DNA of 64,000 nt from Mesostigma viride. Lineage: Eukaryota > Streptophyta > Mesostigmatophyceae > Mesostigmatales > Mesostigmataceae. The notes under the pieces are model-generated. The model was not told where the DNA came from and did no database searches. It saw only the letters and a list, made by a program, of their open reading frames with translations. This document shows positions 43,701-57,108 of the stretch, one piece after another. A program made the position numbers and the translations under genes. Numbering within the stretch: position 1 is the stretch's first letter; the number at the start of each line of letters is the position of its first letter. The DNA lies in NCBI GenBank assembly GCA_009746045.1, contig RPFO01000667.1:5620719-5684718 (forward strand). Reading direction: 5' to 3'.

Positions 43701-46700
43701 CCATGCTCTTTGAGCGCGACGCACAGCAGGAGATCAGTTTCCAGGCAAGTGGGCACACCCGTGGGAGGGGGGGGCTGTTGTCATCCTGGGCCATAGTGTA
43801 CCTGGTAGTGGTGGCTGTGGGCATGTGTTTTGAGCGCGACGCGCAGCAGGAGATCAGCTTCCAGGCAAGTGGGCTCTGTCGGGATATACCGGTCCTGTCA
43901 ACCATAGTATATCTGGCATGTATCTGGGGGCTGTGGGTGAACCCTGGGGATGCCCCTAACAACCCTTAGGCTCCAGGAGAGGCCTTTATATTCTCCCAAT
44001 TCGGTACCTCTAAATGCGTTCCAAGCCTATCTGTGGGCTCTGGACCATAGCCGGGGCAGCCTTACTGCATCCGCCATGCTTTTGTTATGCTGAAGCTTTA
44101 TTGCACCCACAGTTGCGCCCGCACCATGATGCGGAGAGAGCGCTCTGTGGCCTGCCCACTTGAGGCAGTGAGAGAAGCTAGGGCGCCCTCCCTCCTTCTC
44201 ATTGTGTATACGGGTTGAAGGTTCCTTCATTGGTACCCACGTGACTCAGTCTACGTGATAATTAATTAATCTGGGCTATTGGCTACGTGGTTCAGTTCTA
44301 GTGGCTGCACGGTTTTGAATGGAATTGGAACATAACTCCGTTGGGAGTATATGTAGCACATATCCCTGAGAAGGGGATAGCGATGACTGCACGGTATCGC
44401 GATAGTTTAATGCCTGGTAGTGGTGGCTGTGGGTATGTTGTTGGAGTGTGACGTGCAGTAGGAGGAGAGCGCCCAGTGAGCGGTCTGCCTGAGAGGTATA
44501 AAAGAAAACGTGGTATACTGTCGAAGAGGAGAGGACTATTTCCCTCTTTCTATAAAAGGATTGTTGTTGTCATCACGGTGTTATAGGGGTTAGGACCCCA
44601 CTCAAGTACCCTACTATCATAGGGGCTATATATATCTTTCATTCTCATATATATATCATTCTCAATTAACATATATATACGAGGGGGCTTTAACTTTCTT
44701 ACCCCACTGCAGCTCCTACCATGCTGCGCGTCCATTGGTGCTGGTTGTACCACCCCCTTGGTATGCTACTCGCAGAGTCCCGGTATCTCTCGCATCGATC
44801 CTCCCCTCTTTTCCCCGATCATCTCTTTTTCCTGGTCATCTTCACACTCCATCCCATTTTTTTTCCCCATATCCAGCTGAGGACTTTGGCTCACATGACG
44901 CAGACTTCGCGTGTATTCATCGCGCTTCTGTCGTCACGCTGCATAGCGTTGCCCGTACCCTCCTCCTACTGCGCTGCTGCTATCGTCCTCTTCTCCCTCG
45001 TGTCACCACGCTCCTCCCTTTGTGCGCTGCAACAGCACCTCGAATGTCTGCGTGTATACTCGGTTTTGTCCACAGGGTTCAAGGCCTCTTATCCCTCGTT
45101 TCATCCCCAATGGCCAATTTGTATTTGTACGATTGCATTTCCCCTCTGCCCCAGAAGAAGACCTCGAATGCCTGCGTATTGTTCTTGTTCATCTCAGCTC
45201 GTTCTTCATCTTCAGCTCGTTGTTGTCAGCTTCAGCTCGTTGTTGTCAGCTTCAGCTCGTTGTTGTCAGCTTCAGCTCATGGTTGTCAGCTTCAGCTCAT
45301 GGTTGTCAGCTTCAGCTCATGGTTCAGCTTCAGCTCATGGTTGTCAGCTTCAGCTCATGGTTGTCAGCTTCAGCTCATGGTTGTCAGCTTCAGCTCATGG
45401 TTCATCTTCAGCTCATGGTTCTGGTATCCACTCTAATTATTATTCGTGACGGCCCGATCTCCCTCCTGCCTTTAAAATCAGGACCCCAAGTGGCTGCTGG
45501 GCGCGGGCGTCGTCCTCTTCATATTTGTGACTCCCGACCACTCCTCTGTGCCAACGACTCCCCTACCACCCCCCGTCACACTCCCCCCAACAGGACCTCA
45601 AGTGGTTGCTGGGCGCGGGCGTCGTTGACAACATCAAGGTCGTGAACCGGTCCGTCGCGCGAATCTACGTGAAGCCCGGCGCCGCCACCCCCGCCGCCCT
45701 CGACTCCCTGGACGGTGGACACGCCGCGGGGGGCAGCAGCACAACTGCCGGCACCTTCTCCTCCGCCTCCACCCCCTCCAGAACCGGAAGTGTCCTCGCT
45801 GGCGGTGGCTCATCATTTCCAGGGATCGGAAGCCGGTCGACGGATGCGATGGATGACCCGGGGGAGAGGGACTTCCGGGCAGACGCCGCCTCTGGGGGTG
45901 GCAGCGGCGCCCCTGCCAGGGACGATGGGGCCTCGATCCCCTTGGGGGGGGACGTGTCCGGGCCGGCGCACCATGGGCCATCGGTGTGCAAGTATTTCCT
46001 GAACATCGGCAGGTTGGTGGCTCCGATGGGCTGTGCCGTGAGCTAGTATTGTGAGGAGATGTTTGAGCGCCGATCGAAAAGTACGTGGAGATGTTTGAGA
46101 TCTAATCGATAGGTACTTTTATTTATCCCGTCTCCCTGTTGACACCCCCACTTGGTTCCCTTTCCACCCCTTCACGTGGAGATATTTTAGCGTGGCCCAA
46201 TAACTCTTATTTATGCACCATACAGCTGCTGGGTTCCCCTATTCCATCCCTCCTCTCCCGGCCCCCTTACCGCGGAGATGTTTGAGCGCTGAGCAGCTCA
46301 CTAGCCTTTCACTCTCGCTTTGGCGTCGAGAGCTTTTGTCAGGAAATGTTTATTTCATATCCTCCCTCCACTCACTGTGTGGAGATGTTGGAGCCCTTAT
46401 GAGGGGGTTAATGAGTACGGGTGGGTTAACGAGTTACCTCTGTTCATGCCCTATTCGTTCCCTATTCAGTCACTTCCAGGGCCCCCTCCCCCCCCCCCCC
46501 CCCCCCCCCCCCCTGCTATTATATTGATAAAATGTTCCCCCCAACGTGGAAATGTTTGAGCGCAAGCTGGAGGAACCTCTCTTCATTACTTTTGTCCTTA
46601 CTCGATCCCTCCCAACCCCACTCCCACCCCCAACCCACCCCCCAACGCACCAACCGCCAGCGTGGAGATGTTTGAGCGCAAGCTGGAGGAGGTCCAGAGC

Positions 46701-57108: not shown

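Follow-up and report, generated by a model that had tools for sequence, protein, structure and literature searches.

Splice-edge copies in a protease gene

The window analysed here, a 64,000-nucleotide stretch of Mesostigma viride DNA, carries on its forward strand a gene for a mitochondrial m-AAA protease (40525–57108). The gene model comprises 11 exons, ends in a TGA stop codon and keeps its reading frame open over all junctions. Residues 155–954 of the model match the annotated protein P0001 at 800 of 800 positions, which covers seven junctions, from exon 4/5 to exon 10/11. Of the ten introns, nine are GT-AG and one, intron 4, is GC-AG. Long open frames lie on either side of the gene (35639–40054 and 58793–61939) and are reverse-transcriptase-like as judged by eye only.

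Exons 1–6, + strand: 40525–40779, 41911–41974, 42810–42872, 43578–43744, 45594–46012, 46661–47149
Exons 7–11, + strand: 48229–48412, 51502–51696, 53062–53172, 55265–55636, 56563–57108

A sequence-only reading of this locus had reported that exon boundaries, including the splice site, recur inside the adjoining introns. We compared each 42-nucleotide (nt) exon edge with all ten introns, counting ungapped matches with a score of at least 13. Donor edges give 15 matches in their 10 own introns versus 5 in the 90 other cells of this matrix, and acceptor edges give 12 versus 1 in 90. Dinucleotide shuffles of the own intron return a mean of 0–0.03 matches, or 0–0.10 in a second test that uses 24-nt edges and a score of at least 11. 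Own-intron matches therefore lie far above both controls, and the echoes, as we call these copies, exist in the introns of this gene. They are located as follows.

43822–43874, + strand: exon 4 donor-edge copy, 120 nt downstream and including the GC donor; homology continues into the intron flank (z 4.3)
45482–45513, + strand: exon 5 acceptor-edge copy, 112 nt upstream
46052–46574, + strand: six exon 6 acceptor-edge copies, first exon-like base at 46052, 46084, 46175, 46271, 46378 and 46545
47342–47601, + strand: three exon 6 donor-edge copies, exon-like part ending before 47358, 47483 and 47595 (all three by the 24-nt test; the last alone passes the 42-nt test)
48018–48054, + strand: exon 7 acceptor-edge copy, weak
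48486–48850, + strand: three exon 7 donor-edge copies, ending before 48516, 48759 and 48844
51783–52382, + strand: exon 8 donor-edge copies, ending before 51804, 51910, 52007, 52080 and 52296, with a sixth before 52376 by the 42-nt test only
52513–53000, + strand: exon 9 acceptor-edge copies, from 52513 (24-nt test only), 52732, 52825 and 52976
53237–53518, + strand: exon 9 donor-edge copies, ending before 53253, 53301, 53410, 53463 and 53512

With 24-nt edges, the donors of exons 4, 6, 7, 8, 9 and 10 have 1, 3, 3, 5, 5 and 0 copies, and the acceptors of exons 5, 6, 7 and 9 have 2, 6, 1 and 4. These numbers agree with the earlier reading for the donors of exons 6 and 8 and the acceptors of exons 6 and 9. 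Its single copy of the exon 5 acceptor is what 42-nt edges return, the 24-nt edges adding a second. Its estimates were somewhat high for the donors of exon 4 (two), exon 7 (four) and exon 9 (seven to eight, where we find five to seven depending on threshold, seven being reached with 24-nt edges once the score is lowered to at least 10). Three copies proposed for the exon 10 donor were not recovered at a score of at least 11. Introns 1–3 and 10 have no edge copies at either threshold.

The first exon 8 donor copy forms part of a 107-bp tandem repeat. Intron 8 is mostly covered by the spans of exon 8 donor and exon 9 acceptor copies, and the spacers are mostly not recognisable copies. The AG dinucleotide is absent from all six exon 6 acceptor echoes (46052–46574) and is kept in three exon 9 acceptor echoes (52732–53000) and in those of the CCT5 intron L059.3.

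Echoes in other genes

The genome (440 Mb in 2243 contigs) was searched for kinesin, CCT and adaptin genes on other contigs, a convenience sample of families. Introns were modelled by domain match, frame and splice consensus, and 42 introns from 18 genes were kept besides the window's 10. From 36 modelled introns, three of L050 (the same gene as L049) and three with a donor score below 6 were dropped, as was one of 13 introns modelled later (donor score below 6). Splice sites in the sampled genes were checked against an annotated protein at three CCT5 sites, the others being set by modelling.

Across these 52 introns in 19 genes, 21 donor edges and 9 acceptor edges have echoes in their own intron (p = 0.016 for the difference). 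Outside the window gene, echoes are found at 17 donors and 4 acceptors of 42 introns, and 14 of 18 genes have at least one; the window gene alone contributes 4 of 10 donors and 5 of 10 acceptors. All 61 matches from the 104 edges (42 donor, 19 acceptor) are in direct orientation and none is inverted. Only 7 of 1424 donor edges match introns of other genes, which rules out introner-like dispersal, and only 1 of 269 windows from exon interiors is copied.

A later set of 12 introns, taken separately, yields five donor and no acceptor echoes, with a cross-gene control of 4 in 1124. An earlier pass with looser site choice, which includes the duplicate contig of L050, had given echoes at 20 donor and 7 acceptor edges out of 58 each, with 38 donor and 15 acceptor matches versus 1.3 and 0.5 expected from other genes. 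The echo pattern is thus real and extends beyond one gene. Because it recurs on other contigs, assembly error at the single locus, which the sequence-only reading had left as a way for its claim to fail, is excluded. Introns with and without echoes are alike in length (medians 767 and 670, p = 0.46).

Contig C622 is 99.96% identical to part of contig C2 over 4.9 kb, as seen at the L049/L050 pair, and is likely to be a duplicate contig; the two are too similar to reveal a change in copy number. The published Mesostigma assembly is described as 442 Mb in 2363 scaffolds, its introns averaging 1142 bp with 30.1% repeats (PMC6947507). Passages of that paper report no exon-edge copies, and the main text of a second genome paper does not contain the word 'intron'.

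Shape and order of the copies

To assess the shape of the copies, we took the exon part as the sole criterion for calling an echo, which gave 26 donor and 17 acceptor echoes from 40 introns. In donor echoes similarity spans about −21 to +5, in acceptor echoes −3 to about +20, and beyond these limits it drops. The donor hexamer is retained at 0.73–0.85, nearly equal to the exon part, and retention is 0.38 at +7. At 9–28 nt into the intron, identity is 0.48 for donor echoes (0.42 random; exon part 0.82) and 0.42 for acceptor echoes (0.40 random; exon part 0.81). Flanks were compared for 39 of the 43 echoes, those with flanks shorter than 20 nt being left out: 10 show homology in the intron flank (z > 4), and 29 show no significant homology there. 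Tandem units are nevertheless present in introns L043.1 (83 bp between copies), W.8 (107 bp) and L039.1 (70 bp), and L049.1 has a well-kept flank.

Much of this box-shaped profile is recovered when duplications across the junction are simulated to decay neutrally, with indels included. The true copy is constrained over about the span of similarity, so decay affects one copy inside the span and both copies beyond it, which yields a box. The drop after the hexamer is sharper than simulated: for all echoes, identity is 0.45 at +6 to +8 and 0.32 at +13 to +29, versus 0.53–0.66 and 0.41–0.55 in the indel runs. When one echo is taken per junction, the values (0.53 and 0.38) come closer to the indel simulation. 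Uniform tandem units decaying neutrally therefore fit in part only, given the near-random flanks, the 29 of 39 echoes without flank homology and the sharper drop.

The copies are also ordered. In 14 sets with at least two echoes, concordant minus discordant comparisons amount to 29 of 76 pairs (permutation p = 0.003), and the nearest copy is the best copy in nine sets, ties counted. The proposal that similarity falls with distance from the true edge is thus borne out over all genes. Best echoes contain a median of 26 nt of exon (5–43), versus 58 nt expected from random placement if unit length is equated with the echo's distance, up to a maximum of 200; 4 of 30 best echoes share at most 10 nt with the exon. 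Stop- and start-codon edges gave no echoes in three cases, a sample too small to be informative.

A background of local repeats

Local direct repeats abound in the non-coding DNA of this genome. Of 330 windows from random genomic flanks, 44 have a direct repeat within 700 nt versus 7 with an inverted one, and for introns (the satellite intron L040.0 excluded) the numbers are 120 and 12 of 740. Junction echoes are therefore partly what such a general process looks like at an exon edge. Of 1009 intron-interior windows in 37 satellite-free introns, three with satellite-like windows having been left out, 214 repeat themselves; among the junctions of those introns, 13 of 35 donors do so and 8 of 29 acceptors. 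Because intron interiors repeat themselves too, acceptor echoes are not clearly above background.

Donors behave differently. Simulated junctions have echoes at 0.7–0.9 of the interior rate, or about 11–15%. After masking, echoes are found at 18 of 47 donors, roughly 2.5 times this expectation, and at 8 of 43 acceptors, which agree with it. Tested against backgrounds of 13, 16 and 20%, the donor value gives p = 1.2 × 10−5, 1.9 × 10−4 and 0.003. Donor edges thus exceed the intron background, and a uniform process is insufficient.

The frequency of downstream copies varies with position: such a copy exists for 46 of 574 windows deep in introns, for 15–21% of windows that start at +12 to +82, for 38–42% at the donor edge and for none of 46 at −72. 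Among pure-intron windows that start 12–82 nt past a donor, 46 of 247 recur downstream, versus 136 of 1664 deep windows, a ratio of 2.3, although several windows come from each intron and are not independent. A bootstrap over genes places this ratio at 1.04–3.51 at the main threshold and at 0.76–3.98, not significant, at a stricter one; because the interval is borderline and significance is lost at the stricter threshold, the donor-zone enrichment is suggestive only. The acceptor zone has no excess (6 of 57 versus 145 of 1664 deep windows).

Probable junction-straddling tandem duplication and its alternatives

We consider it probable that the echoes are relics of recurrent short tandem duplications across the exon–intron junction. 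The duplicated unit would mostly comprise about 20–40 nt of exon, the splice site and some tens of nucleotides of intron, for a total of about 70–120 nt where best preserved. Break repair or slippage may produce such duplications. The outermost copy alone would then act as the exon edge, and the other copy would end up within the intron, be spliced out and decay. Annotated proteins agree with use of the outermost copy at the ten junctions that were checked. Fresh duplications at the true edge would push older copies outward, such that the intron lengthens stepwise. Constraint acts on the true copy alone, and there only on its exon and splice-site bases; the intron parts of both copies diverge, which is why the copies resemble bare exon edges. 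Recurrent duplication of this kind explains the orientation, specificity and order of the echoes as well as the intact units. The earlier suggestion that introns grow by outward boundary duplication is supported by the exclusively direct orientation, the intact tandem units at some junctions and the greater similarity of the nearest copies.

Such duplication may strike uniformly, or it may be anchored at junctions, for example by donor-proximal breaks or by R-loops during transcription. An anchored mutational process would account for the roughly 2.3-fold higher frequency of copies immediately past donors compared with intron interiors (1.04–3.51), for the short exon reach (26 versus 58 nt) and for the excess of donors over acceptors (21 versus 9 of 52). 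However, the enrichment loses significance at the stricter threshold (0.76–3.98), its statistics are weakened by windows that share an intron, acceptors are no higher than background (6 of 57 versus 145 of 1664) and the window gene alone is balanced (4 of 10 versus 5 of 10). The same asymmetry could arise if selection removed acceptor duplications or those that carry a long piece of exon with them. We regard anchoring as possible, with the evidence leaning somewhat away from it. The asymmetry itself may mean that duplications are drawn to donors, or that acceptor-side ones are purged because splicing would more readily take up an acceptor copy that lies upstream. We tentatively suggest, as a conjecture that we hold at less than even weight, that introns here grow chiefly from their edges: duplication anchored near transcribed 5′ splice sites would re-copy the junction, and some introns, such as intron 8, would be built largely of stacked donor and acceptor echoes whose order keeps a readable record of growth.

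Selection could instead retain the echoes as decoy, recursive or alternative splice sites, as the sequence-only reading also considered. The donor hexamer is retained nearly as well as the exon part before the fall at +7, and the frame stays open through the exon 4 echo 120 nt away. Yet mismatches fall nearly evenly over the three codon positions (33 of 327, 37 of 325 and 41 of 321) and only 2 of 42 donor echoes offer an open in-frame extension, and on these grounds we reject coding extensions. The lack of AG in all six exon 6 acceptor echoes also argues against function, as do the annotated proteins, which fit the true edges and not the echoes at seven junctions of the window gene and at three of three modelled in CCT5. 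Overall, the splice dinucleotide is kept in 18 of 26 donor echoes (GT or GC) and 9 of 17 acceptor echoes (AG); by a rough estimate, this is about what decay alone would leave. A functional role for the echoes is not supported by the sequences, and we judge it unlikely.

Slightly less likely still is that end joining inserted short templated copies of the edges. Many echoes do look edge-limited at 20–30 nt, but the lack of inverted copies at 104 edges, the scarcity of copied exon interiors (1 of 269) and the tandem units with intron flank speak against it, and we reject it. Chance, low complexity or an assembly artefact is very improbable, and is refuted for donors, since despite the abundance of microsatellites in introns the shuffle and cross-gene controls are near zero, 14 of the 18 genes sampled from other contigs have echoes and many remain after masking (18 of 47 donors, 8 of 43 acceptors).

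Relation to known systems

Intron lengthening is usually ascribed to transposons. If edge duplication is common, the constrained exon edges would provide a standard against which every duplication could be dated, allowing intron growth to be read and timed. Echo loci would also lend themselves to testing how the spliceosome selects among splice sites duplicated in cis. For gene prediction in the Mesostigma genome, the echoes are a caution, as they present near-perfect false sites.

Intronic minisatellites likewise consist of head-to-tail copies within introns. Unlike these, the Mesostigma repeats begin at the exon edge and carry that edge with them.

Tandem duplication is an established source of introns, as stated in sections of a review (PMC3443670), and a duplicated segment described in part of a report on potato RdRp spans an intron–exon boundary (PMC4974935). 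The echoes resemble these cases in that a short tandem duplication copies splice signals. However, a new intron arises in the cases that these sources describe, whereas Mesostigma introns seem to lengthen, with the extra edges inside them and at many junctions. A new intron that uses a duplicated AGGT for both sites is not seen in the window gene, where each intron has one true donor and one true acceptor, with echoes inside.

Small tandem duplications arise from the repair of breaks with protruding ends, according to portions of a study of induced breaks in mouse and human cells (PMC8355091). Both there and here the products are direct tandem copies of short segments, the type of event being deduced in our case; the main text of that study does not contain the word 'intron', and a similar mechanism may act in this alga. 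Introners share with echoes a repeated sequence tied to introns, but are portrayed in passages of PMC9860276 as copies inserted into many genes, whereas each echo matches its own exon. Tandem duplication that makes introns, including the boundary-crossing potato case, is therefore already known. No earlier description of introns lengthening genome-wide by duplicating their own edges turned up among the open-licence PMC papers listed by our searches.

Other repeats and contigs

Several further repeats lie in the window. Intron 4 contains a dispersed repeat of about 345 nt (43926–44270) with at least 39 further places at 86–96% identity. Intron 7 has a nested layout at 48966–50945, in which stretches at about 48966–49089 and 49136–49548 recur at about 49554–49680 and 50525–50940; judged by eye, these resemble a mobile insertion with split copies. 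Introns 2 and 9 carry tetranucleotide arrays of more than 500 bp (42235–42775 and 54194–54982). Arrays of a 173-bp satellite occupy 7640–9265, 9789–11768 and 15982–17856, the unit in the third apparently lying on the opposite strand. Elsewhere in the assembly, contig C2011 has long intronless Cpn60 and tRNA synthetase frames and may be a bacterial contaminant.
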